Shown here: positions 1,625 to 17,933 of the stretch, in pieces | Layout of the letters: every line of letters starts with the position of its first letter | Position numbering within the stretch: the first letter of the stretch is position 1 | NCBI GenBank assembly: GCA_015057715.1 | Contig: SVDS01000043.1 | Span: 1 to 34,301, forward strand | Direction of reading: 5' to 3' | Length of the DNA: 34,301 nt | Origin: Paenibacillaceae bacterium | GTDB taxonomy: Bacteria > Bacillota > Clostridia > Lachnospirales > Lachnospiraceae | The notes under the pieces: model-generated | The model's database searches: none | What the model was told of the DNA's origin: nothing | The model's input: only the letters and a program-made list of their open reading frames with translations | Made by a program: the position numbers and the translations under genes

Positions 1625-2233
1625 ATGCCTACGGAGCGGTTTTATAATCTTCCGGCGGAGAAAAAGAAAATAATACGGGATGCTGCAACTGAGGAGTTTA
1701 TCAGAGTGCCCTTTGAAAAGGCTTCAATTAATAAGATAATACAGAGCGCAGGAATATCAAGAGGAAGTTTTTACACTTATTTTGTTGATAAGCGGGATGT
1801 GCTGGGATATATTTTTGAAGACGCTGGAGATAATTTTCAGGAGTCCTGGGTCAGATGTGCACAGAAAAGTAATGGTGATTTATGGAAGACAGCGGAGGTA
1901 TTTTTGCAATATTCCATTAATAATACCGAAGAAAAGGTCTTAAGGCTGGTTGAAAATATTCTGGATAGTGAAAAACTTTTCGGAGTCGTTCATAATTTGT
2001 GTCATGAGAAAAAGGATAAACAGACCGAATTGCGTGAGGTAATGTATCGTTGTACTGATATGACAAATTACAGGTATACGGATATTGATACCTTTGGCAG
2101 ATTAGTTTCCATGATCCTTTTTGAACTGGCCCGATGTATGGGCTGGTATTACCATCATCCAGAAGATGAAGAAAAAATTAAGAAAATTTTTCAAGAAAAA
2201 TTAGACATTTTACAGTATGGAATTCGAAAATAA
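1625..2233 (+). CDS. TetR/AcrR-family transcriptional repressor, likely regulator of the adjacent efflux genes
   Basis: A 202-residue protein with an N-terminal TetR helix-turn-helix at about residues 33-54 (ASINKIIQSAGISRGSFYTYF), where the GSFYTYF recognition block is diagnostic, and a helical C-terminal ligand domain without recognisable motifs. The start follows GAGGTG at 1614-1619 with 5-base spacing. The gene opens a run of same-strand genes: 45 bases separate it from the RND adaptor and no terminator lies between. The perfect promoter in front of it is overlaid by a paired TGACA-N3-TGTCA palindrome. The simplest reading is an autoregulated repressor that releases the efflux operon when it binds a pump substrate. 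The effector cannot be predicted. Confidence 0.92.
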   Translation: MPTERFYNLPAEKKKIIRDAATEEFIRVPFEKASINKIIQSAGISRGSFYTYFVDKRDVLGYIFEDAGDNFQESWVRCAQKSNGDLWKTAEVFLQYSINNTEEKVLRLVENILDSEKLFGVVHNLCHEKKDKQTELREVMYRCTDMTNYRYTDIDTFGRLVSMILFELARCMGWYYHHPEDEEKIKKIFQEKLDILQYGIRK

Positions 2234-2278: not shown

Positions 2279-3418
2279 ATGACAAAGAAAAAAGTATTTA
2301 TAATTGCAGGGACTGTTGTAGTTGTGGCTGTTCTCGCAGGGCTTGTGCTTCCTAAGATTCTTAATGGGGGCAAGGAAGAGCTGGTAGCAGAAGCACCGCC
2401 GGTAGTAACCGCCCAGAAACCGGAGATCCGGACAATAGAAATTAACAATGAACTGATTGGTAGCATTGAGCCGGACAGCATCGTTCATGTAACACCTCTT
2501 GGCGCAGGGGAAGTAACCAATATAGCTGTGAAAACCGGAGACAATGTGACAGCAGGGCAGCTGCTTTGTGTAATTGATACAAAACAGGTAGAAAGTACAC
2601 GGATCGCCATGGAAACTGCCAAAATTACATACGGGGATGCAAAGAAGAATCTGGACCGCTTAACCGTACTTCATGCGGCAGGAGATGTGGCGGATGCCGA
2701 TTATCAGAATACGGTAGGTCAGGTGGAAATGGCCAGACTTCAATATGAAAATGCAAAGATTATGTATAATACCCAGCTGGAAAGCAGCCAGGTGACGGCT
2801 CCTATTTCTGGTAAAGTGGAAAGCTTTAATATCAGCCTTCACGATATGATCTCTCCCCAGACGACAATCTGCGTAATTTCAGGAGATGGCGGAAAGTCTC
2901 TTACCTTTTATGTCTCAGAGCGGATTATAAGCGGATTGAAAGCCGGTGATGTTATCCGGGTAGAGAAAAACGGTACGGATCATGAAGCAGCCATAACAGA
3001 AGTAAGTACCATGGTTGACAGTGGAAGCGGATTATTTAAAGTGAAAGCTTCTATTCCTTCCGGAGATTCACTTGCTACAGGAACTTCTGTAAAGCTTTAT
3101 GTAACGGCCCAGAAAGCAGAAAACGTACTTACGGTTCCTGTTGACAGTGTTTATTATGAGACAGGAAAACCATTTATCTATACATATCTGAATGGAACAT
3201 TGAAAAAGAATGCAGTTACTATCGGACTTACAAATAATGAATATGCAGAGGTTCAGTCGGGAATTGGCGCAGATGATCAGGTAGTTACCACATGGACCAG
3301 CGAATTATACGACGGCTCAAAAGTTACTCTGGCGGAGACTGCCGCGGAAACCACTACGGAAACCGAGACGACACAAGATAATGGACCCGAGGTAGAGACT
3401 TCTGCTTCTGCACAATAA
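2279..3418 (+). CDS. RND efflux membrane-fusion (periplasmic adaptor-type) protein, HlyD/AcrA family
   Basis: A 379-residue adaptor subunit for the RND pump encoded next. It has an N-terminal membrane anchor (residues about 5-27, hydrophobic and not a lipobox) and the first half of a barrel-sandwich (lipoyl-like) domain at about 60-100. An alpha-hairpin follows at about 100-165, then the second lipoyl half (TAPISGKVESFNI) and beta-barrel/membrane-proximal domains. It ends in a low-complexity Thr/Glu tail from about residue 350. The hairpin turn carries Arg127, Leu131, Val137 and Ala138, close to the R-x3-L-x6-S docking motif of adaptors that meet TolC, with Ala in place of Ser. AAGGAG (2267-2272) sets the start. 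It lies 12 bases before the pump gene and is surely co-transcribed with it. Its anchor and extracytoplasmic body would sit on the outer face of the single membrane. Confidence 0.93.
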   Translation: MTKKKVFIIAGTVVVVAVLAGLVLPKILNGGKEELVAEAPPVVTAQKPEIRTIEINNELIGSIEPDSIVHVTPLGAGEVTNIAVKTGDNVTAGQLLCVIDTKQVESTRIAMETAKITYGDAKKNLDRLTVLHAAGDVADADYQNTVGQVEMARLQYENAKIMYNTQLESSQVTAPISGKVESFNISLHDMISPQTTICVISGDGGKSLTFYVSERIISGLKAGDVIRVEKNGTDHEAAITEVSTMVDSGSGLFKVKASIPSGDSLATGTSVKLYVTAQKAENVLTVPVDSVYYETGKPFIYTYLNGTLKKNAVTIGLTNNEYAEVQSGIGADDQVVTTWTSELYDGSKVTLAETAAETTTETETTQDNGPEVETSASAQ

Positions 3419-3430
3419 GGGGGCGCTAAA

Positions 3431-6400
3431 ATGGGAATGACAAAATTTGTATTAAAGCGGCCCATAACTGCCATATTAGCAGTTTTATGCCTTCTTGTAT
3501 TTGGATTATCCTCCGTTTTTTCTTCCAAACTGGAATTGACACCGGAGATGAATTTCCCCATGCTTTTAGTAACAACTACGTATGTAGGAGCAAGCCCGGA
3601 GGATATTAACGATCTGGTTACCAAACCAATCGAAGAGTCCGTAGGTACTCTTTCCGGTGTTAAAAATATTCAGTCCAGCTCTCAGCAGAATATATCTATC
3701 GTGTACATGGAATATAATTACGGTACCGATATGAATAAGGCATACAATGATTTAAAAAAGAAAATGGACAGTCTGGATCTTCCAAAGGAAGTAGAAAAGC
3801 CCTCCATTATGGAATTTAACATTAATGATATGCCTTCCATGACACTTTCCATCAAAGATCCATCTCAAAACAATCTTTACAATTATGTAAATGATAAGAT
3901 TGTTCCTGAATTTGAGAAAATTACTTCCGTCGCAAGTGTCAATATCAGCGGCGGCCAGGAAGGTTACGTAAGAGTTAATCTGATACCTGAGAAGATGAAG
4001 CAGTATCATCTTAATATGGACTCCATCAGTCAGGCGATTAAAGCAGCTGATTTTACATATCCCGCTGGCCAAACAGAAGTGGGAAAACGGGAATTATCTG
4101 TAAGTACCGGTGTAGACGTAAAGACGGTGGAAGCCTTAAAAAAGGTTCCAATTGTGGCCAGTCAGGGTAAGACCATTTACATGGAAGATATTGCCGATAT
4201 ATCAGAAACCAATCAGAAACAGACTGCCATAGGCCGGTATAACGGAGATGACACAATCACTGTATCCCTTAGTAAACAGCAGAAAAACAGTGCAGTTGAT
4301 GTTTCACGGGCAGTTAAGAAAACCATTGATTCTCTGCAAAAGGATTATCCGAATCTGCAGGTAGTAATTGTTGATGATAACAGTGACCAGATTACCACAG
4401 CTCTTAGCAGTGTAAAGGATACCATGATCGCAGCAGTTATTATTTCCATGATTATTATTTTCCTCTTCTTTGGAGATATTAAAGCTTCCCTGATCGTAGG
4501 AACCTCTATCCCGGTTTCCATTCTGGTATCTCTTATTATGATGGCAGGCATGGGATTTTCTTTAAACGTTATTACCATGAGCAGTATTGTATTAGGTGTC
4601 GGAATGATGGTGGATAACTCCATCGTAGTACTGGAAAGCTGCTTCCGATCCCAGAAGGGTACTGGTTTCAGGGAATATATGAGTGCGGCATTAGAGGGAA
4701 CCGGCATTGTAATGCAGTCCGTTCTTGGAGGTACTCTGACAACCTGCGTAGTGTTTATACCTCTGGCGTTTTTAGCAGGTCTGACCGGTCAGTTATTTAA
4801 GCCTCTCGGATTTACAATTGTGTTCTGTATGATGGCTTCCTTTATCTCTGCCATTACCATTGTACCATTATGTTACTCCAGGTTCCGCCCGGTGGAACGG
4901 CAGCATTCTCCCATGGGAGGATTTGTAAGGGGTCTTCAGAGTATCTACAGAAAGATTGTAGATAAGCTTTTAAATAGGCGTGCTCTGGTTATGGTAATAT
5001 CAGTACTGTTGTTATTGGCATCTTTTGGCTTTGCATCAAAACTGGGATTTGAACTGATGCCTTCCGTGGATCAGGGAACCATTTCTATCACGGCTCAGAT
5101 GAAACCAGGAATTAAAGTTGAAGAAGCAGATAAGATATTAAAAAAACTGGAGGGAATTGTCACCAGTGAAGAAGATTTAAAATCTTATATGGCTAGTTAT
5201 GGCGGGCAGGGTCTTAGCTTTTCCGGAGGAACCAACGGAACTTTAACTGCATATCTGAAAAAAGACAGAAAGCTCACAACGGATCAGGTGGTTAATAAAT
5301 GGAAAAAATTAATGAATCAGGTTCCTGATTGTAATGTGACTGTGAAATCAACTTCAAGTGTCAGTGATATGAGCGGAGGTAATAAGCACGATTATGAAGT
5401 TATTCTTCAAAGTGCTCAATTAGATCAGTTAAAACAGGTCTCTGACCAGATGGTAAATGAATTAAGCGCCCGTCCGGAGATGATTAAAGTACATTCCGAT
5501 CTGGAAAATGCAGCACCAGTAATCAAAGTGCGTGTAGATCCCATCCAGGCAGCGGCAGAGGGCGTCAGTCCTGCGGCAGTTGGAGGAATGCTGAACGGAA
5601 TGCTAAGCGGTGTAAAAGCGATGACTATGGATGTAAATGGTCAGAACGTGGATGTTAAAGTACAGTATCCCGATGACACCTATAATACCCTGGAAAAGGT
5701 GGAAGGTGTTCTGGTACCTAATAACATGGGTGGATCTGTGGCACTGACTGATATCGCTAAAATTGGTTATGAAGACAGCCCCACAGCCATCAATAGAAAG
5801 AATAAGCAGTATCTGGTTACCATAACAGGTTCATTCACAGATGCCGTAAAGAATAAGAAAGAGAAAGCGGCAGCGATAAAGGAACTTGACAGTAAAGTTA
5901 CGGGTAAATACTTAAATGATAGTGTAACAAGGGCAAAAAACAGTGAAGATGCCTCCATGCAGGAAGAGTTGGGAAATCTTATGAAAGCCATTTTGATTGC
6001 TACATTCCTGGTGTTTGTAGTAATGGCGGCTCAGTTTGAATCGTTCAAATTTTCCCTTATGGTTATGACCACCATTCCATTCAGCTTAATTGGATCCTTT
6101 GGCTGTTTGCTGGCAGCAGGTGTTGCAATCAGCATGCCTTCCATGCTGGGCTTTCTGATGTTAATCGGTACGGTGGTTAACTCGGGAATTCTTTACATTG
6201 ATACAGTTAACCAGTATCGAGCTTCCATGGATAAACGGACCGCATTGATTGAAGCCGGCGCTACCAGACTTCGACCAATCCTCATGACCACACTGACTAC
6301 GATTGTATCCATGATTCCTCTGGCGTTAGGAATTGGCTCCAACACTGAGACGATGCAGGGACTTGCACTGGTTAATGTGGGCGGTCTTACTGCCTCCACC

Positions 6401-6478
6401 ATATTGTCAATGCTTATGCTGCCTGTCTACTATTCTCTGATGAGTGGAAAAATAGATAAAACCCAGCTGCCGGATTAA
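3431..6478 (+). CDS. RND-family efflux transporter (HAE-type, AcrB/MdtBC/SwrC-like)
   Basis: A 1015-residue proton-driven efflux pump of the resistance-nodulation-division superfamily with full family length and the usual internal duplication. The first membrane helix (about 11-31) is followed by a large extracytoplasmic loop, five more helices, a loop joining the halves, then the repeat. The fourth helix carries VGMMVDNSIVVLES with Asp395-Asn396 where AcrB has Asp407-Asp408. The tenth carries TVVNSGILY with Asn917 where AcrB has Lys940. That D/N...N pattern is common in Firmicutes and Bacteroidetes relatives, so it marks the subgroup rather than a defect. The gene sits 12 bases after the adaptor. 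A GC hairpin covers its stop codon (6466-6488). Likely substrates are hydrophobic drugs, bile-type detergents or lipopeptides, but the sequence does not decide. Confidence 0.95.
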   Translation: MGMTKFVLKRPITAILAVLCLLVFGLSSVFSSKLELTPEMNFPMLLVTTTYVGASPEDINDLVTKPIEESVGTLSGVKNIQSSSQQNISIVYMEYNYGTDMNKAYNDLKKKMDSLDLPKEVEKPSIMEFNINDMPSMTLSIKDPSQNNLYNYVNDKIVPEFEKITSVASVNISGGQEGYVRVNLIPEKMKQYHLNMDSISQAIKAADFTYPAGQTEVGKRELSVSTGVDVKTVEALKKVPIVASQGKTIYMEDIADISETNQKQTAIGRYNGDDTITVSLSKQQKNSAVDVSRAVKKTIDSLQKDYPNLQVVIVDDNSDQITTALSSVKDTMIAAVIISMIIIFLFFGDIKASLIVGTSIPVSILVSLIMMAGMGFSLNVITMSSIVLGVGMMVDNSIVVLESCFRSQKGTGFREYMSAALEGTGIVMQSVLGGTLTTCVVFIPLAFLAGLTGQLFKPLGFTIVFCMMASFISAITIVPLCYSRFRPVERQHSPMGGFVRGLQSIYRKIVDKLLNRRALVMVISVLLLLASFGFASKLGFELMPSVDQGTISITAQMKPGIKVEEADKILKKLEGIVTSEEDLKSYMASYGGQGLSFSGGTNGTLTAYLKKDRKLTTDQVVNKWKKLMNQVPDCNVTVKSTSSVSDMSGGNKHDYEVILQSAQLDQLKQVSDQMVNELSARPEMIKVHSDLENAAPVIKVRVDPIQAAAEGVSPAAVGGMLNGMLSGVKAMTMDVNGQNVDVKVQYPDDTYNTLEKVEGVLVPNNMGGSVALTDIAKIGYEDSPTAINRKNKQYLVTITGSFTDAVKNKKEKAAAIKELDSKVTGKYLNDSVTRAKNSEDASMQEELGNLMKAILIATFLVFVVMAAQFESFKFSLMVMTTIPFSLIGSFGCLLAAGVAISMPSMLGFLMLIGTVVNSGILYIDTVNQYRASMDKRTALIEAGATRLRPILMTTLTTIVSMIPLALGIGSNTETMQGLALVNVGGLTASTILSMLMLPVYYSLMSGKIDKTQLPD

Positions 6479-6488
6479 TACCGGCAGC
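6466..6488 (+). other. Perfect 8-bp GC-rich hairpin over the RND stop codon
   Basis: GCTGCCGG (6466-6473) and CCGGCAGC (6481-6488) flank a 7-base loop that includes the stop codon. What follows is GATAAAAAG rather than a T run, so it is not a classical intrinsic terminator. It may act as a 3' stabiliser or processing boundary between the pump mRNA and the TolC-like genes. Confidence 0.6.
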
Positions 6489-6526
6489 GATAAAAAGATT
6501 ATAGATCTGATATGGAAGAATGTGGC

Positions 6527-6556
6527 TTGGCTCTTTTTGACAGAATGTGATATGAT
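6527..6556 (+). promoter_or_regulatory. Probable sigma-A promoter for the two TolC-like genes
   Basis: An extended -10 element, TG-A-TATGAT (6548-6556), has a weak -35 TTGGCT (6527-6532) at 18-base spacing. An alternative overlapping reading is TTGACA (6537-6542) with TAAGAT (6561-6566), also 18 bases. Either would give the TolC-like pair its own transcript in addition to read-through from the pump genes. Confidence 0.5.
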
Positions 6557-6600
6557 AAACTAAGATATAGTATAAAAATCCCAGTTAAGGAGGATTTAGG

Positions 6601-7749
6601 ATGAGAAAGTGGAAGCAGATTGGCGCATTTACTCTTGCAGCAGTGATGACCTTCTCTGGACCGGCATCGACTGTCTGGGCTGGAAGTCCGGAGTTTTCAA
6701 GGACTGCTGAGGAGTGGGCAAAGCTTAGAGATAATACAATGGAATATGGTGAGCTGAAAGATCTGATACATGAATATAATGTGAAGGTGCAGAAAAACCA
6801 GCTTGATATCAGCGATAAGAAAAAAGATGACCGGGTTACCAGTGATGAGTATGCCAGGTATTACCGGGATGCAGCAGATAGTGCCCGCAGTTCAATTGAT
6901 GGAGATAATGCATTAACGGATGCGCAAAATGCCGTAAATGCAAGAAAGGCAGACGAACAGGCGGATAAAAATGTTGAAGATTTAACGGTTGACCAGCTCA
7001 CCTATGACCAGGAAGAGGCTACGCTTGTGGCTTCGGCTCAAACTTCGATGATTAACTATTTTCAGCAGAACTATGAGCTGGAAACTTTAAAAGATAATCT
7101 GGAACTTTTACAGGCAGTTTATCAGTCTGTACTGGTAAAGCAGAGTGCGGGAATGGCAACCCAGACAGATGTGCTTGACGCATTGCAGAATATCCAGAAC
7201 ACTCAGACGTCAGTGGATAAAACCACGGCAGCCATAGAACAGACAAGACAGAAATTATGTATCATGCTTGGCTGGAAATATAATGATACGCCTGAGATCA
7301 AAGATATTCCCCAGGTAGATATGGCACAGATTGATACCATGAATCCTGATTCCGATACGGAAACTGCATTAAACAATAACTTCACACTGAAAATCAATAA
7401 ACGGAAGCTTGGAAATGCAACTGCAGATATCACAAAGGATACCCTTAAGCGGTCTATCTCCAGTAACGAGCAGAATATCGGCACAGACGTGGTAAAGAGC
7501 TATCAGGAGGTTCTGCAGGCCAAAGCAGCCTATGAACAGGCGGTAACAGAATTTAATCTGGAGAGCAAAAATATGGAAGCTGCCGAACGGAAAGCCCAGG
7601 TTGGCACTATGAGCGGAATTGATTACAGAAAACAGAAAAATGCACTGGTTACGAAAACCAATGGAGTGAAAACAGCAGAGCTTGCACTATTTCAGGCAGT
7701 TCAGACTTATACGAATGCAGTGAATGGTCTTGCTTCGACAGGGGGTTGA
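6601..7749 (+). CDS. TolC-family-like secreted coiled-coil protein 1 (no room for a beta-barrel)
   Basis: A 382-residue exported protein. AAGGAGG (6587-6593) sets the start and a signal peptide spans about residues 1-27 (cut near VWA-GS). The rest is two TolC-type helical halves. Hairpin-tip motifs are SAGMATQTDVLDA (about 182-194) and QVGTMSGIDY (about 333-342), equivalent to the VGxxxxxDV tips that form the alpha-barrel entrance of TolC. The first half ends in the usual LCIMLGW block. Between ALNNNF and the following coiled coil (VVKSYQEVLQAKAAYEQ) there are only about 40 polar residues, where outer-membrane TolC proteins have the beta-strands. The LP-rich strand segment is missing in both halves. 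It lies directly after an RND adaptor and pump, so it is probably the pump's third component, reshaped for a cell without an outer membrane. Confidence 0.85.
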   Translation: MRKWKQIGAFTLAAVMTFSGPASTVWAGSPEFSRTAEEWAKLRDNTMEYGELKDLIHEYNVKVQKNQLDISDKKKDDRVTSDEYARYYRDAADSARSSIDGDNALTDAQNAVNARKADEQADKNVEDLTVDQLTYDQEEATLVASAQTSMINYFQQNYELETLKDNLELLQAVYQSVLVKQSAGMATQTDVLDALQNIQNTQTSVDKTTAAIEQTRQKLCIMLGWKYNDTPEIKDIPQVDMAQIDTMNPDSDTETALNNNFTLKINKRKLGNATADITKDTLKRSISSNEQNIGTDVVKSYQEVLQAKAAYEQAVTEFNLESKNMEAAERKAQVGTMSGIDYRKQKNALVTKTNGVKTAELALFQAVQTYTNAVNGLASTGG

Positions 7750-7753
7750 TGAT

Positions 7754-8956
7754 ATGAAGAAAAGATGGATCTCATCGACTTTCCTCGCTGCTGCGTTAGC
7801 AGTTTTTGCCACATTTCCAGCTTTCGCCGCAGGACCGGGTCAGACAGAAGATCCTAAGCCCGAAGAAGTGACTCAGGAGCAGTGGAATCGTTTGAATGAT
7901 CATACTATCGAATTTGATGAATTGCCAGATCTGGTGAGATATTTCAATCCAAATATTCAAAATATTAAACAAAACATTGATGTGTCTTTGGATGATATGA
8001 AGTATATCAATGATCAAGTTAGACGTCAGATTATGGACTTACAAGATGATGCGGATAAATTAAAAGATTCTGGCGGGCTTGGCACAAAAGAGGGAATGGA
8101 TCAGTATGTTCAATTGAATATAAATCTGAAAGTCTTAAAAGTTACTGCAGACTCTATATTAAAATCTTATAATTACATGAACCGGGCTGATTCCTCTGTG
8201 AAATCAAATATTACATTTGCTGCAAAAAATTATAATTATTACGCAGATCAAATAATGATAGGATATAACAGTGCATTATCCAATAAAGGGATGATAGAAA
8301 AGATTGTGGAGTTAAGCAATGCAGCTTATGAAGCCCAGGTTTTAAGCAAACAGCTGGGGCTTGCAACTGACGCTAATGTGTTATCAGCGCAAAAGGATCT
8401 GCTTCTTGCAAAAGGATCTTTAATTAAAATAAACAGCACGATTGATAATTTAAGTCGTTCTCTCTGTATGATGACTGGATATGCTGCTGATGCAGCACCT
8501 TCGATCGGAGGGTTACCACAGCTTTCGGATGAGACGATAGCATCTCTGAATCTGGAGGAAGATACAAAGAAAGCAGTCTCCAATAATTACGATTTAATTT
8601 CTGAACGCCATGCTTCTTCCGGTAAAACGACTACTGGAATGAAAAATAAGGAGCAAAGCGTATCTGAGGCAGAGCAGAATGTAATAGTTAAAATGCAGAC
8701 CTATTATCAGGGAATCCTGCAGTCAAAGTCTGCTTATGAAGCAGCAAGTACTGCATTCCAGAAGGCCACTCTGGATAAGGATAAGGCAGACCGCTCTTAT
8801 CAGTTAAACATGATGAGTAAGATACAATATCTTCAGGCACAGATGGCTTACTTAAAGGCGCAGGGCGAAAAAGACAGTGCTTATAATACTTACTATCAGG
8901 CATATACCACGTACCAATGGGCCATTCAGGGAATTATTATGGATTCTGCGAAGTAG
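7754..8956 (+). CDS. TolC-family-like secreted coiled-coil protein 2 (paralogue of the upstream gene)
   Basis: A 400-residue exported protein. I take ATG 7754 rather than an upstream in-frame ATG at 7724, because 7754 follows GGGGG (7741-7745), begins four bases after the previous stop and gives a clean signal peptide (MKKRWIS...FAA, cut near residue 26). As in its neighbour, two helical halves carry tip motifs, LGLATDANVLSAQ (about 201-213) and LNMMSKIQYLQAQ (about 351-363), and the first half closes with LCMMTGY. The second half again goes from AVSNNYDL to coiled coil with only about 30 polar residues, so no barrel strands fit. The N-terminal region shares the motif EQWNRLNDHTIEFDELPDL with the first protein (EEWAKLRDNTMEYGELKDL), showing the pair arose by duplication. 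Its 3' end overlaps convergent spoIIR by 20 bases. Confidence 0.83.
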   Translation: MKKRWISSTFLAAALAVFATFPAFAAGPGQTEDPKPEEVTQEQWNRLNDHTIEFDELPDLVRYFNPNIQNIKQNIDVSLDDMKYINDQVRRQIMDLQDDADKLKDSGGLGTKEGMDQYVQLNINLKVLKVTADSILKSYNYMNRADSSVKSNITFAAKNYNYYADQIMIGYNSALSNKGMIEKIVELSNAAYEAQVLSKQLGLATDANVLSAQKDLLLAKGSLIKINSTIDNLSRSLCMMTGYAADAAPSIGGLPQLSDETIASLNLEEDTKKAVSNNYDLISERHASSGKTTTGMKNKEQSVSEAEQNVIVKMQTYYQGILQSKSAYEAASTAFQKATLDKDKADRSYQLNMMSKIQYLQAQMAYLKAQGEKDSAYNTYYQAYTTYQWAIQGIIMDSAK

Positions 8957-12979: not shown

Positions 12980-14200
12980 TTAAAAAAAACTATCACTAAC
13001 AAATGGAACGGCTCCGTATTTTCCGAGAAGATAGTCCTTAGAAAAACTGGCATCAGACCGAACCTTTATATCAGCTAAAGTGTAGAGCCTGGATTCCTGA
13101 TATTCATTAATATCAACAAAAGCTACTTCATCCCGCCGGAACTGCTGGTTGTTTAAAATAGAAACATCGTAAGTTGTAAAAATCAGCTGCATATTACTAT
13201 TTTTTTCCTGCTGAAAGGAATCAATAATAAACTTTATTACGGTGGGATGAAACATGTTTGAAATATTGTCAATAATCAGAACACCTCCATTTTGGGAAAT
13301 GAAATAAATCTGCATAAACAAACGAAGATATTTTATTGTTCCCATGGAAATTTTCGTAGAATCCATATATCGTATTTTGTACTCATCAGAAGAGCGGGAT
13401 TTGATCCGGTATCCCAATTTAAGAATTCCCTTGTCTACTATAAACTCTTCTACAGGAATTCCCAATTTACGCAGCTGTGACAATCCATAATTAAGCGCGT
13501 TGGGGGACTCAAGGGCCTTATAGAGCCGGTCTTCTTTGAATAAGGCGCCAGCAAGCTGGAACGGTTCCTGATAGTCATGATAATAAAGAATGTGTTCCAG
13601 GAAAAAAGTTTCAAACGGTTTCATGATTGCCGAAAATTCCGGAATATCAAGGCATAATAAGATTGTACAGAATAACCGGTTGTCATTCGGTTGTATGCCA
13701 GCCTTTTGGCGTAACAATTTTTCATAAGAGCGCCCAATGGACAGTTTACCGCAGTTTCGTGTAAAAACCACATGGTGGTCAACCGTCAGCTGTTCTGATA
13801 TAATTTTCTGTTCGAATATGGAGAAACCATATTCGTAGACTTTCCCTCCGCTTATAAAGGATAACTCCATTTCCGTGGGTGAGTTATTATCATCAGCTCC
13901 TTCAAATGGAACAATCCTGCATACGCTGCTAAAATGCAGAAGTGACATAAAATGGTTTCTGGGAATATCTCTCAGTGAAAATATTTCCCCCCAGATAAAC
14001 GTATGGAAACTGGCAAAAGCGAGGAACAGATTGGTTTTTCCACTGGCGTTTGCGCCATAGACGGCTAATGTCTTTATTATCTTTTTATTGTCAGTCATAA
14101 TTAAATGGTTTGGGTGCTCTTTGTAATTGACTGCCTTCATATCTACATATGTTTCGTCCATAAAGGAACGGAAGTTTTTAAATCGAAAAGAAATTATCAT
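12980..14200 (-). CDS. AAA/ABC-type ATPase of the AAA_15/AAA_21 (RloA/Abi-like) group, atypical active site
   Basis: A 406-residue SMC/ABC-like ATPase. The N-terminal strand IISFRFKNFRSFMDE (2-16) is the usual RecF/OLD-like start. Walker A is YGANASGKT (48-56), the signature region SMGT is at 285-288, and the C-terminal YLLGKYGAVPF (390-400) is typical of RloA/COG1106 proteins. Two catalytic positions look changed. Walker B reads VLIIDN (307-312), with Asn312 where the catalytic Glu is expected, and the switch region reads FTTYD (341-345), with Tyr344 where relatives have His. Family members include phage-abortive-infection and restriction-linked ATPases, often with a RloB-type nuclease partner. 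None is present here. It is the last gene of an operon with two tyrosine recombinases. The function could be defence, regulation of recombination, or a decayed remnant. The frame is intact. Confidence 0.82.
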   Translation of the reverse strand: MIISFRFKNFRSFMDETYVDMKAVNYKEHPNHLIMTDNKKIIKTLAVYGANASGKTNLFLAFASFHTFIWGEIFSLRDIPRNHFMSLLHFSSVCRIVPFEGADDNNSPTEMELSFISGGKVYEYGFSIFEQKIISEQLTVDHHVVFTRNCGKLSIGRSYEKLLRQKAGIQPNDNRLFCTILLCLDIPEFSAIMKPFETFFLEHILYYHDYQEPFQLAGALFKEDRLYKALESPNALNYGLSQLRKLGIPVEEFIVDKGILKLGYRIKSRSSDEYKIRYMDSTKISMGTIKYLRLFMQIYFISQNGGVLIIDNISNMFHPTVIKFIIDSFQQEKNSNMQLIFTTYDVSILNNQQFRRDEVAFVDINEYQESRLYTLADIKVRSDASFSKDYLLGKYGAVPFVSDSFF

Positions 14201-14273: not shown

Positions 14274-15119
14274 TTACCATGTGATAATTTCGTCAAGAAG
14301 CTGTTGCTGCTCCTGGCTGGAATGGGTGAGGTATATTCTTGTGGTTTCTATACTATCGTGCCCCATTAAGTCAGCCAGAAGAGAAATGTCATTAAACCTG
14401 GATAAAAAGTTTTTAGCGAACCGATGACGGAATGAATGAGGGTAAACGGTATCCGGATTTATTCCATAACGCTTTGATAGGTATTTTAGCTGGGCGTTGA
14501 TTCCGCGAGGTGTGATTAAGCGTCCTTTTTTATTTAAAAACAGAAAACCACTGTGAATACCTTTTTCATTGCACCAGTCCAGCGCTTCCGTACACAGAGA
14601 ATCCGGAAAATAAATGCGGCGTATCTTCCCGCCTTTGGAGTAAAGGTCTAAATATCCCAGGTTTATATGCTCTACCTTAATCTGAATTAGTTCACTGACC
14701 CGGGCACCGGTTGCGGCCAGAAATCGGACGACAAAGTACCAGAAATACTTTTTTTCTTCTTTCAATTTACTTTTTAGAAGTTCATAATCCTCCACTGAGA
14801 TGGTGGTATCCAGGAAAGTTTTTTGCTGGACTTTGACAGATGGAAGCTGAAAAGAAGATAACGGGTAAAATTCTTCTTCATTTGTTTCCGTCAAAAAGCG
14901 GGAATAATGATTCATTGCATAAATCCGCTGATTAATGGTTGACGGGCGATAGCTGGAAATTAAGAAGTTTTTATACTGCTGAAGATACTCCGGCGTTATT
15001 TCGTGATATAAATTGAAAAAAAGGCGGACACTGCCAGTATATGCCATAATTGAATTATTTGACAAATTTTTTTTCTTCAAATATTTTATATATTTATTTA
15101 GCATTTCTTCATCTAACAT
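14274..15119 (-). CDS. Tyrosine recombinase (XerC/D-like phage-integrase family), second of a tandem pair
   Basis: A 281-residue site-specific recombinase. The N-terminal SAM-like core-binding domain spans about residues 1-95 and the catalytic domain about 105-281. The catalytic set is complete: Arg140 (ATGARVSEL), Lys165 (SKGGKIRR), His228 and Arg231 (HSFRHRF), His254 (LMGHDS) and nucleophile Tyr263 (TTRIYL). It starts six bases after the stop of its paralogue, with no clear Shine-Dalgarno, which suggests translational coupling. More than half of the residues in the catalytic domains of the two proteins match. It lacks the long N-terminal DNA-arm domain of phage integrases and has no excisionase next to it. 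It is probably a chromosomal inversion or resolution enzyme rather than a prophage integrase. Confidence 0.92.
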   Translation of the reverse strand: MLDEEMLNKYIKYLKKKNLSNNSIMAYTGSVRLFFNLYHEITPEYLQQYKNFLISSYRPSTINQRIYAMNHYSRFLTETNEEEFYPLSSFQLPSVKVQQKTFLDTTISVEDYELLKSKLKEEKKYFWYFVVRFLAATGARVSELIQIKVEHINLGYLDLYSKGGKIRRIYFPDSLCTEALDWCNEKGIHSGFLFLNKKGRLITPRGINAQLKYLSKRYGINPDTVYPHSFRHRFAKNFLSRFNDISLLADLMGHDSIETTRIYLTHSSQEQQQLLDEIITW

Positions 15120-15125
15120 AATATT

Positions 15126-15989
15126 CTACCAATTCACAATTTGATTTACAATCTGCTTTTGTTCTGTGCTGCTCCGATGTAGGTAAATTCTTGTTGTTTC
15201 AATACTTTCGTGCCCTAAAATATCAGAAAGCATGGATATATCACCACATTTTTCAATGAAGTTCTTGGCAAAACGGTGACGGAAAGAATGTGGATAGACA
15301 ACCTTGGGATCCAAATCGTAAAGGGTAGTAAATTTTTTTAGCTGACCCCGAATCCCGGCAGGAGTAATTGGCTCTCCATAGCGATTTAAAAATATGTATC
15401 CATTGACCCGGTCAATTTGACGAAGCCATATCAGGGCATCAATACGAAGGCTCTTAGGAATATAAATTCTTCTTATTTTATTGTCTTTGGAATAGATGTC
15501 CATGTATCCACGTGCTACATGTTCCGCCTTGATCTGAACCAGTTCGCTGACTCTGACCCCTGTAGCTGCCATAAAACGGATAACGTAATAATACAGCATG
15601 TTTCCGGAACGAATCAGGCATTTTTTTAAATATTCATAGTCTGCCTGGCTGATCACATTTTCCAGAAACGTTTTCTGCTGTACGCGCACCATCAATACTT
15701 TGGAAGAGGACAGTTTTAAAAATTCTGTATAGCAATTAAGTGCTCTTATTCTTAAATTCACTGTTTGAGGTTTGTAATGCTCCATAAGAAAGCATTTATA
15801 GAGCAATAAATTATCGTGGTTGATCACATGATAATATTGTATAAATTGTTTTGCTGCAAATATGTATACATGAATTGTATTTTCTGACATATTATTAAAT
15901 TCCAAATAGTTTCGAAAACCATCAATACTATTTTCTTCGGCGCTTTTTTCTTCTACCTTTGCTTTCGTGCTTGTCTTCTCTTTTGTCAT
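15126..15989 (-). CDS. Tyrosine recombinase (XerC/D-like phage-integrase family), first of a tandem pair
   Basis: A 287-residue recombinase. I start it at 15989 (MTKEKTST...) because AAGGAGAG lies about ten bases upstream on the complement. The longer frame to 16052 has no ribosome site and covers the promoter. It carries a lysine-rich N-terminal tail, a core-binding domain, and a catalytic domain with all residues visible: ATGVRVSEL, SKDNKIRR, HSFRHRF, LGHES and TTRIYL. It is a paralogue of the next gene. It opens a minus-strand operon (recombinase, recombinase, ATPase) with its own promoter at 16037-16065, and faces away from a repeat-rich surface protein gene 231 bases distant. Paired recombinases beside surface-protein genes are known from phase-variable loci in gut bacteria, so that role is possible here but no inversion site was found. 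Confidence 0.92.
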   Translation of the reverse strand: MTKEKTSTKAKVEEKSAEENSIDGFRNYLEFNNMSENTIHVYIFAAKQFIQYYHVINHDNLLLYKCFLMEHYKPQTVNLRIRALNCYTEFLKLSSSKVLMVRVQQKTFLENVISQADYEYLKKCLIRSGNMLYYYVIRFMAATGVRVSELVQIKAEHVARGYMDIYSKDNKIRRIYIPKSLRIDALIWLRQIDRVNGYIFLNRYGEPITPAGIRGQLKKFTTLYDLDPKVVYPHSFRHRFAKNFIEKCGDISMLSDILGHESIETTRIYLHRSSTEQKQIVNQIVNW

Positions 15990-16220
15990 GTCTTTTTCTC
16001 TCCTTATATGTTGGTGAAAAAACAGTCTACCCCACAAGTATATTAATAACATATTAAAAAATCAAGAAAAAATCGAAAAAATAGCAAAAAAAATACATTT
16101 ATGAGCTCTTAAAAGGCAATTGCTTTCGATAATTTCCAATATTAGAAGTATAATTACCTCGTAATGCAATTAGGAATTTCAGAAAATATTTCAAGAAGAA
16201 AAAAGGAGAGTGCATTAATT
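15990..16220. promoter_or_regulatory. AT-rich divergent region between the recombinase operon and the surface-protein gene
   Basis: These 231 bases hold the minus-strand promoter of the recombinases, a weak plus-strand promoter (TATAAT at 16149-16154 without a good -35) and AAAGGAG (16202-16208) for the surface protein. A short palindrome, ATTAC-CTC-GTAAT (16153-16165), lies just past the plus-strand -10 and could be an operator. I see no long inverted repeat that would mark an invertible promoter. Confidence 0.5.
16037..16065 (-). promoter_or_regulatory. Sigma-A promoter of the recombinase-ATPase operon
   Basis: On the complement, TTGATT (16060-16065) and TATACT (16037-16042) are separated by 17 bases, and the recombinase start lies about 48 bases downstream. 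Confidence 0.7.
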
Positions 16221-17933
16221 ATGAGAAAGCAGACAAAATTAGTTGCTGTATTATCCACAGCAGCACTGCTGGCAATAGGCGCTTCTATGACCTCTTTCGC
16301 AGCAACTGGCTGGCAGGAAGAAAATGGTACATGGGTGTACTATGATAAGAGCGGAGAGTTAGAAACAGAGAAGTGGGCAAAATCAGGAGATAACTGGTTT
16401 TACTTAAACGAAGATGGCGAAATGGCTACCGATATTATTGTTGAAGACAATGATAATTACTACTATGTAGATGAGAATGGTTCCATGGTAACCAACAAGT
16501 GGGTTTCAGTAGAGAACGAAGACTATGATGGTGATGATGATGAAGAACCAATGAATTACTGGTACTATTTCGGAACCAACGGTAAAGCTTATAAGAGTTC
16601 TGCAAATGGTAACAGTGCTGCCTTTAAGTCCATCAACGGAAAGAAGTATACATTTGATGATGAAGGCAAGATGCTTTTTGGCTGGATTGATGACAACGGC
16701 GAAAGAGTAACCGGTGATGATGACTGGCGTGAGGGTGTTTATTACTGTGGCGATGAGAATGATGGTGCCCAGAGAGATGGTCAGTGGGAGAGTCTGGAAA
16801 TTACAGATAATAACTATGACGATATTGATACCGGTGTGTCCAGCAATAACTTATTTGATGATGAGGAGCAGACACGTTGGTTCTACTTCAAAACCAATGG
16901 TAAAAAGATGACAGATGAAAAAGGCAAGACCATCAATGGCAAGAAGTACAGCTTTGATTCAGATGGCCGTATGAATGCTGAATGGGTTAATTTTGTAGCC
17001 ACACCTACAACATCTACTACACCTACTACAGCTTCAACCAGCCAGGGAAATAAAGATTACACTCATGAATATAGATATTATGGAAGCCCTGAAGATGGTG
17101 CAAGAATAACCAAAGGCTGGTTCCAGGTTGTTCCTGATTCCTATTTAAGTCTTGATGATTATAATGATGATGAGTCTAACTGGTACTATTCTGATAAGGA
17201 TGGCAGACTTGTTGCAGGTGAGGTTAAGACCATTAATGGTAAAAAATATGCATTTGATTCCTATGGTGTAATGAAGTCTGGTTTAGTTGCTATCAAATTT
17301 GAAGGCAATAGCACGACAGAAATTGCAGATGTAGCAGGTGATGATGACTTATCTGGATACTTCTTTGATACAGAAGATGCATTTAAGTCCAATGTATCAG
17401 CACTTTATACTGAAGCACAGTATAAGTTATACTACTTTGGCGGTGATGATGACGGCGCTATGAAGACCGGAAAGCAGAATGTTACCATTGATGGAGATAC
17501 TTTCTCCTTCTTATTTAATAAGTCCGGCAGCTCAAAAGGTCAGGGTAAATTTGGCGTAGATGATGATAAATATTATCTGGGTGGTATGTTATTAAAGGCT
17601 GATAAGGATGATAAATATTCTGTAGTTAAAACTGTAAAATCTGCTGATGGTTATGTAGAAATCAAATTGTTAACAACAGAAGAGTTCTTAGATGATATGG
17701 ATGTGTCTTCTTCCGTTGCTGCGAAGGATGCAGATGATTATGATGAATACTATGACGTAAAAGCGAAAGCTAAAGACGGTCAGACGGATGAACACGGCAA
17801 TGCGATCGAATATAGATTGGTTAACACAGCTGGAACTGTTCAGAAGGGCAAGAGCAAGGCAAAAGATGGAGATGACCGTTGCTATAAAGTTAACAGTAGC
17901 AAGGAAATTGAAGCAGTATTTGTAGAAGACTAA
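16221..17933 (+). CDS. Secreted cell-wall-binding repeat protein, very acidic
   Basis: A 570-residue exported surface protein. I start at ATG 16221, which gives a textbook signal peptide (MRKQTKLVAVLSTAALL...SFA, cut near residue 27). An upstream in-frame ATG at 16164 would bury it. AAAGGAG (16202-16208) is somewhat distant at 12 bases. The mature protein opens with choline-binding-type repeats (GWQEENGTWVYYDKSGEL, WAKSGDNWFYLNEDGEM). The element TINGKKYxFDxxGxM then recurs at residues 138, 238 and 338 in exact 100-residue steps, with a degenerate fourth copy near 423 (IDGDTFSF). A Thr/Ser linker (TPTTSTTPTTASTSQG) spans about 261-276. Asp and Asn runs make it strongly acidic. No catalytic domain is recognisable and the C-terminal 130 residues are unassigned. 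It probably coats the wall by binding teichoic acid or glycan. It stands alone between two terminators. Confidence 0.88.
   Translation: MRKQTKLVAVLSTAALLAIGASMTSFAATGWQEENGTWVYYDKSGELETEKWAKSGDNWFYLNEDGEMATDIIVEDNDNYYYVDENGSMVTNKWVSVENEDYDGDDDEEPMNYWYYFGTNGKAYKSSANGNSAAFKSINGKKYTFDDEGKMLFGWIDDNGERVTGDDDWREGVYYCGDENDGAQRDGQWESLEITDNNYDDIDTGVSSNNLFDDEEQTRWFYFKTNGKKMTDEKGKTINGKKYSFDSDGRMNAEWVNFVATPTTSTTPTTASTSQGNKDYTHEYRYYGSPEDGARITKGWFQVVPDSYLSLDDYNDDESNWYYSDKDGRLVAGEVKTINGKKYAFDSYGVMKSGLVAIKFEGNSTTEIADVAGDDDLSGYFFDTEDAFKSNVSALYTEAQYKLYYFGGDDDGAMKTGKQNVTIDGDTFSFLFNKSGSSKGQGKFGVDDDKYYLGGMLLKADKDDKYSVVKTVKSADGYVEIKLLTTEEFLDDMDVSSSVAAKDADDYDEYYDVKAKAKDGQTDEHGNAIEYRLVNTAGTVQKGKSKAKDGDDRCYKVNSSKEIEAVFVED

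Follow-up and report, generated by a model that had tools for sequence, protein, structure and literature searches.

Two adjacent genes, here called A and B, encode TolC-like proteins without a beta-barrel and lie directly downstream of an RND transporter and its adaptor on a contig of the Lachnospiraceae. Profile and fold both place the two proteins in the OEP superfamily, but they are not canonical outer-membrane factors: the barrel strands are absent, and an Omp85 search, used as a proxy, gives no sign of an outer membrane. Textbook tripartite pumps serve to cross an outer membrane. We consider it probable that A and B form an exported, all-helical duct docked on the short-hairpin adaptor of the RND pump in a single-membrane cell. 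The core of this idea, namely TolC-like proteins with an omission in the barrel and encoded in pump operons of monoderms, has already been published (Stubenrauch et al. 2022, PLoS Biol, PMC8809574). A conserved pair, the loss of all strands, MacAB-type loci with the pair and a relation to adaptor length were not found described in the open-access papers searched. If the reading is right, the pump–adaptor–duct principle would also work in the single-membrane envelope of gut-type Firmicutes by means of a doubled duct without its membrane part, thereby making the passage of exported compounds across the thick wall testable; hairpin length against duct presence would be a simple predictor of which adaptors need a partner, and the system may bear on the debate over the descent of Firmicutes from two-membrane cells.

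Gene content of the window and its host

The window, that is, the whole stretch of DNA analysed, is the complete contig C17 of 34,301 bases, taken from an assembly of 5.4 Mb in 283 contigs. Both open reading frames were recovered where the first-pass annotation had placed them, with the RND transporter and adaptor adjoining. The features of this region are as follows:

1625..2233, + strand: TetR-type regulator (PF00440, 41.8 bits, cut-off 24)
2279..3418, + strand: RND adaptor (membrane fusion protein; TIGR01730 RND_mfp, 175.7 bits, cut-off 94.9)
2576..2797, + strand: adaptor hairpin, 74 residues, with an RLS-like tip motif in which the S position is A
3431..6478, + strand: AcrB-type RND transporter (PF00873, 683.7 bits)
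6537..6566, + strand: weak promoter-like site TTGACA-18-TAAGAT 5' of gene A (10/12 matches)
6601..7749, + strand: gene A, barrel-less TolC-like protein, 382 aa including the signal peptide
6841..6966, + strand: A residues 81-122, helical hairpin replacing strands 1-2 (model)
7147..7170, + strand: first hairpin tip of A, around G184
7417..7425, + strand: A residues 273-275, turn replacing the second two strands (model)
7600..7614, + strand: second hairpin tip of A, around G335
7754..8956, + strand: gene B, barrel-less TolC-like partner, 400 aa including the signal peptide
7949..8182, + strand: B residues 66-143, long antiparallel helical hairpin replacing strands 1-2 (model)
8354..8368, + strand: first hairpin tip of B, around G202
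8804..8818, + strand: second hairpin tip of B, with N352 replacing Gly

Gene B most likely starts at 7754 rather than 7724, because the ATG at this position leads into a typical signal peptide and has a G-rich stretch before it (by eye); 4 bases lie between the stop of A and the start of B. The adaptor has an N-terminal membrane anchor (judged by eye). Promoter-like sites in the region numbered 30, and 21.1 ± 4.5 were expected.

The host had been described as a likely monoderm, and a genome search, taken as a proxy for the number of membranes, fits this description. Omp85/BamA (PF01103) was matched in none of 50 genomes with A or A-like genes (30 from the same family as the window, own genome included, and 20 other Clostridia) and in 7 of 14 control genomes, which supports a single membrane in the carriers, by the Omp85 proxy rather than by microscopy. 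A diderm host or a contaminant contig, with A and B as ordinary outer-membrane factors, is hardly credible. The contamination listed for the source assembly is 4.42%, but spoIIR is present on the same contig as the pair, the best-scoring named relatives of gene A belong to Lacrimispora and Hungatella (genera of Lachnospiraceae), and the cassette recurs in named isolates. The Omp85 counts and the strand-free models described below also argue against this explanation.

TolC fold and loss of the barrel strands

The claim of a TolC fold without a barrel was borne out by profile scores, AlphaFold2 models and structure comparison. Pfam OEP (PF02321) was matched at 40 bits by A and 35.4 bits by B (cut-off 22). 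The models and the structure comparison showed a duplicated repeat, four long helices and hairpin tips in both proteins, and the single-chain models contained no strand of at least 3 residues. Compared with TolC, both proteins matched the whole-length fold with Z far above that of unrelated rows. The profile of A matched 6 solved chains, all of the TolC type, and that of B matched 18 chains, 6 of which are designed or unrelated helical proteins. Searches with single sequences gave less: phmmer against the PDB returned nothing convincing for A (best value 0.071, to OprN) and nothing of TolC type for B, and hhalign of A and B against the single E. coli TolC sequence was weak (probability 3.2 and 1.5%, respectively).

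All four hairpin-tip motifs had been reported as kept. Three of them stand: A has Gly at both of its tips (G184, G335) and B at its first (G202). The second tip of B carries N352 in this position.

The strand segments had further been described as replaced by 30-40 polar residues. The strands are indeed replaced, but the two halves of each protein changed differently. Spacing was measured between the tip and the conserved Asn that opens each repeat, in an A set of the window and 76 of the 77 listed A rows (L092 left out) and a B set of the window and 73 listed B rows. In repeat 2, this distance is 75 residues in 77/77 A rows and 72-84 in the 74 B rows, against 145 in E. coli TolC and 135 in both CusC and MdtP; repeat 2 is therefore 60-70 residues shorter than in canonical outer-membrane factors, and the strands were deleted there. 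Two strands and the flanking helix ends are gone, and the model of A has a three-residue turn at the strand position. In repeat 1, the length is kept (A 120-137, B 127-163; E. coli TolC, CusC and MdtP 133-148), but the strand segment has become charged and helical, with 42% charged residues in A and 31% in B compared with 7-16% in four TolC and CusC segments. The model of A folds this segment into a short helical hairpin (81-97 and 104-122), and that of B into a long antiparallel hairpin (66-105 and 112-143), which matches an Smc coiled coil in the structure comparison (rmsd 1.3 over 70 residues). The description of 30-40 polar residues thus does not hold for both halves.

A canonical TolC whose strands had been overlooked by sequence comparison was ruled out by the models and the spacing. 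A chance OEP match on a coiled coil was likewise ruled out for A and B, since the same cassette recurs in the own genome and in relatives. Such a chance match seems to explain the OEP match on contig C20 of the own genome, which falls in the frame L008:6826-8265 and belongs to an apparent coiled-coil NlpC/P60-type protein (by eye). PADLOC gave no match, LPxTG was absent from the 77 A and 74 B rows, and a simple lipobox pattern occurred in 8/77 A rows and 3/74 B rows.

Distribution and gene neighbourhood

By profile search, 30 of 299 genomes from the family carry A; 28 of the 30 carriers had at least 2 matches, and 2 carry A without B. Another cassette with this layout is present in the own genome, and its A is 63% and its B 53-54% identical. 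Named genomes were scanned with A, and the best 80 of 133 candidates were kept, giving 78 loci; named Lacrimispora, Hungatella and [Clostridium] isolates have the same cassette. In 78/78 of these loci from the best 80 of 133 candidates, A and B are neighbours in the order A-B, and because the scan was seeded with A, only the presence of B is informative. Of these 78 loci (best 80 of 133), 69 contain an RND transporter, 68 an adaptor, 67 both and 63 a TetR gene, so the proposal that an RND–adaptor–TolC-like neighbourhood is kept in relatives holds in 67/78. Eleven of the 78 (best 80 of 133) do not have both RND and adaptor.

Other arrangements were also observed. In L091, an adaptor, an ABC ATPase and an FtsX-type permease (matched to query proteins) precede A and B, with an apparent histidine kinase and response regulator between the permease and the pair, and L071 has the pair with an adaptor, an ABC ATPase and an FtsX-type permease (by eye). 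Six loci (L144, L145, L147, L150, L151 and L152), in [Clostridium] clostridioforme, [Clostridium] citroniae and similar records, have TetR-A-B with no recognised pump gene nearby. L100 and L130 end at contig ends, L080 contains a masked run, and L081 has several RND pieces and no adaptor was found in it. The pair is thus found with RND pumps, in two loci (L091, L071) with a MacAB-type ABC pump, or alone. Over the class Clostridia, the A profile matched 33/391 genomes; among 20 class-wide loci fetched, 13 had an RND transporter, 4 an ABC/FtsX set and 3 neither. In L194, L197 and L201, from other Clostridia, two neighbouring ORFs match the A profile, and in L194 and L201 these adjoin the ABC/FtsX set.

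Coiled coils occur in wall enzymes, and A and B could in principle be secreted proteins of this kind, acting on the wall or as an external scaffold for the pump, with no conduit at all. The apparent coiled-coil wall protein behind the C20 match (by eye), the resemblance of the extra hairpin of B to Smc and the six named loci without a recognised pump gene nearby favour this explanation, but the TolC fold over the whole length, with a Z far exceeding that of unrelated rows, the linkage to two kinds of pump with adaptors and the conserved adaptor tip make it very improbable.

Descent of the pair

A tree of 73 rows (29 A rows, 28 B rows and 16 others) was built by a quick method. It placed 29 B rows on one side of a branch with support 99, and 30/32 A rows formed a second group with support 94. 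The single relatives L067 and L068 and 12 class-wide rows branched outside both groups, long branches were flagged for L071_B and L136_B, and several sub-groups recurred in both the A and the B half (for example, L149 with L153 and L123 with L129). The A and B distances correlated at 0.79 over 65 loci, and at 0.68 after removing RND; the corresponding values were 0.56 for A-RND, 0.65 for B-RND and 0.89 for RND-adaptor. Taken as sequence evidence, these results suggest one old duplication followed by joint inheritance of A and B. The annotation had noted two unequal copies, and the separate clades, adjacency and correlated divergence support their being inherited together. In a second set of 36 loci, partly the same as the named ones, the order was A-B in 22 and B-A in 10, and 4 were single or not separable.

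Two partners do not by themselves require a mixed assembly. A and B may instead be separate homo-oligomeric ducts that serve different pumps or substrates, since each keeps the hairpin tips and the whole TolC core, a 1:1 ratio of A to B cannot fill a TolC-like trimer, and A stands alone in L067 and L068. Against this stand the adjacency of A and B in 78/78 named loci (best 80 of 133 candidates) and the correlation of their distances beyond that with RND, and we regard separate ducts as rather unlikely. For the duct reading in general, the higher RND-adaptor correlation (0.89, against 0.79 for A-B) is a point against. So are the two carriers of A without B, the A residue at the S position of 28 of 69 short hairpins, the weak matches of the single sequences to solved outer-membrane factors, and the enrichment of SLH domains described below, which suits an S-layer outlet.

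Adaptor hairpin length

Next to the pair, the hairpin of the RND adaptor is 74-75 residues long in 96/96 rows (89 distinct, in 57 clusters at 80% identity; 7 are the same locus in two collections), and 95/96 carry the RLS-like tip pattern. In 69 aligned rows, R and L are invariant (69/69), and the third place is S in 41 and A in 28. The RLS-type tip of an RND tripartite pump was thus found, the window's own adaptor having A.

RND matches of at least 936 bits, the closest class, occur in 26/299 family genomes, and all 26 carry A; the next RND class (734-854 bits, 39-43% identity) occurs in 22/299, of which none carries A. No OEP-like gene was found near any of the 20 pair-less RND loci covered, out of 22, and no OEP match in these 22 genomes exceeded the cut-off; sub-cut-off matches were G023 with 18.8 bits, in the pair-less class, and G021 with 21.4 bits. 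The adaptors of the pair-less class have hairpins of 173-625 residues in 19 intact rows, from which L208 (contig end, 50 residues) and L208b (MacA-type adaptor, 249) were left out, and a lipobox in 17/21 rows. This class comprises loci L207-L226, L230 and L231, and the adaptor hairpin of L224 contains a long Ser/Gly-rich stretch. Many family genomes also contain a third RND group, with a length of about 1,300 aa and an identity near 30% across residues 194-1007.

This contrast predicts a short hairpin for RND operons that have no pair beside them but whose genome contains one elsewhere, and a 74-residue RLS hairpin was found in 3/3 such operons; two further pair-less loci have hairpins of 225 and 226 residues. 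The RLS-like pattern also occurs in 3/21 long hairpins. In other Clostridia, the adaptors next to single-copy relatives have hairpins 95-202 residues long, and 5/13 show the RLS pattern, which means that a duct can occur together with a longer hairpin. Most simply, either the duct or the adaptor itself would provide the reach beyond the membrane; within the family, the contrast may stem from a single split of the RND tree.

The relation to hairpin length gives new support to an outlet or extension of the adaptor, which is most likely the best reading of A and B. On this reading, A and B would be a branch of the TolC/OEP superfamily, duplicated and without a barrel, in a bacterium with one membrane; they would be exported and would form an all-helical tube, in a putative mixed assembly. 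With its hairpin tips, the tube would dock on the adaptor (2279-3418), whose hairpins are short and RLS-tipped and which presumably sits on the RND pump (3431-6478), and the tube could extend the export path into or through the wall without needing a membrane-embedded end. In family members without the pair, the related RND class with its much longer adaptor hairpin may do the same job in one protein.

S-layer and comparison with known systems

In the account of Stubenrauch et al. (PMC8809574), each example has S-layer genes, the S-layer is proposed as the seat of the TolC-like protein, and in C. difficile this protein is shed with an S-layer protein. The corresponding explanation here, that the TolC-like proteins end in, and are held by, a proteinaceous S-layer that replaces the outer membrane, bears on the outer end of the duct and can be true together with it. 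SLH-domain proteins were found in 19/30 carriers compared with 36/269 other family genomes (p = 7e-9), and compared with 3/22 genomes of the pair-less RND class (p = 5e-4); these raw genome counts make the association clear in this sample but are uncorrected for genome size and relatedness. Nine SLH matches lie in the own genome, and SLH domains are no proof of an S-layer. These counts and the shedding in C. difficile (PMC8809574) favour an S-layer outlet, but SLH matches are absent in 11/30 carriers, one of which (genome G185) is a single contig with a listed completeness of 100%, and CW_binding_2 was found in 0/30 carriers (1 match among 50 of the 269 other genomes). The published rule of S-layer genes in all examples fits only partly, as judged by these two domains, and an S-layer outlet appears unlikely here.

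The duct reading can be extended, although we offer the wider form tentatively and with somewhat less than even confidence. RND export lines of Lachnospiraceae might use, interchangeably, a short adaptor with a hetero-oligomeric A and B duct or a lengthened adaptor hairpin; the duct might be shared by RND and MacAB-type pumps, and its outer end, with the hairpin of B, might be adapted to the wall or S-layer.

Among known systems, the closest are the TolC-like proteins of monoderm Firmicutes described by Stubenrauch et al. (PMC8809574). These share with A and B an operon of OEP protein, adaptor and transporter, an omission in the barrel (in C. difficile, from a Phyre2 model of the barrel domain) and the lack of BamA; one operon of L. 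gingivalis encodes two TolC-like proteins. Unlike that set, as far as the sections drawn on here describe it, the present models lack every strand, the two copies belong to old clades that are conserved as a pair, some of the operons are of ABC type, the length of the adaptor hairpin goes with the pair, and 11/30 carriers are without the S-layer domains tested. With E. coli TolC and the other outer-membrane factors CusC, MdtP, OprM and VceC, A and B share the duplicated repeat, the four long helices, the tips and the pump context, and they differ in having no barrel strands or outer membrane and in being two partners. Spr0693, the Gram-positive MacA-like adaptor of a MacAB-like pump (Nat Commun 2018, PMC5768738), forms a tube that extends from the membrane, with the apex at about 154 A in the assembly model; no TolC-type partner is described in the part of that paper drawn on here, whereas the present system has a short adaptor with a TolC-fold pair. 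The pair-less RND operons of Lachnospiraceae likewise consist of RND and adaptor, but with a long hairpin, mostly a lipobox and no OEP-like gene.

Other features of the window

Further genes were recorded in the window and at one related locus. Tandem phage-integrase-family genes lie at 14274-15119 (-) and 15126-16052 (-) with PF00589 scores of 87-89 bits, adjoined by an AAA_21-type ATPase at 12980-14200 (-) (PF13304, 68.7 bits). Four integrase-like ORFs stand in a row beside A and B in L051 at 3569-7137 (+), and the two that were checked scored 88-90 bits with PF00589. At 16164-17933 (+), the window encodes a protein with choline-binding/cell-wall-binding repeats (PF19127, 71 bits).
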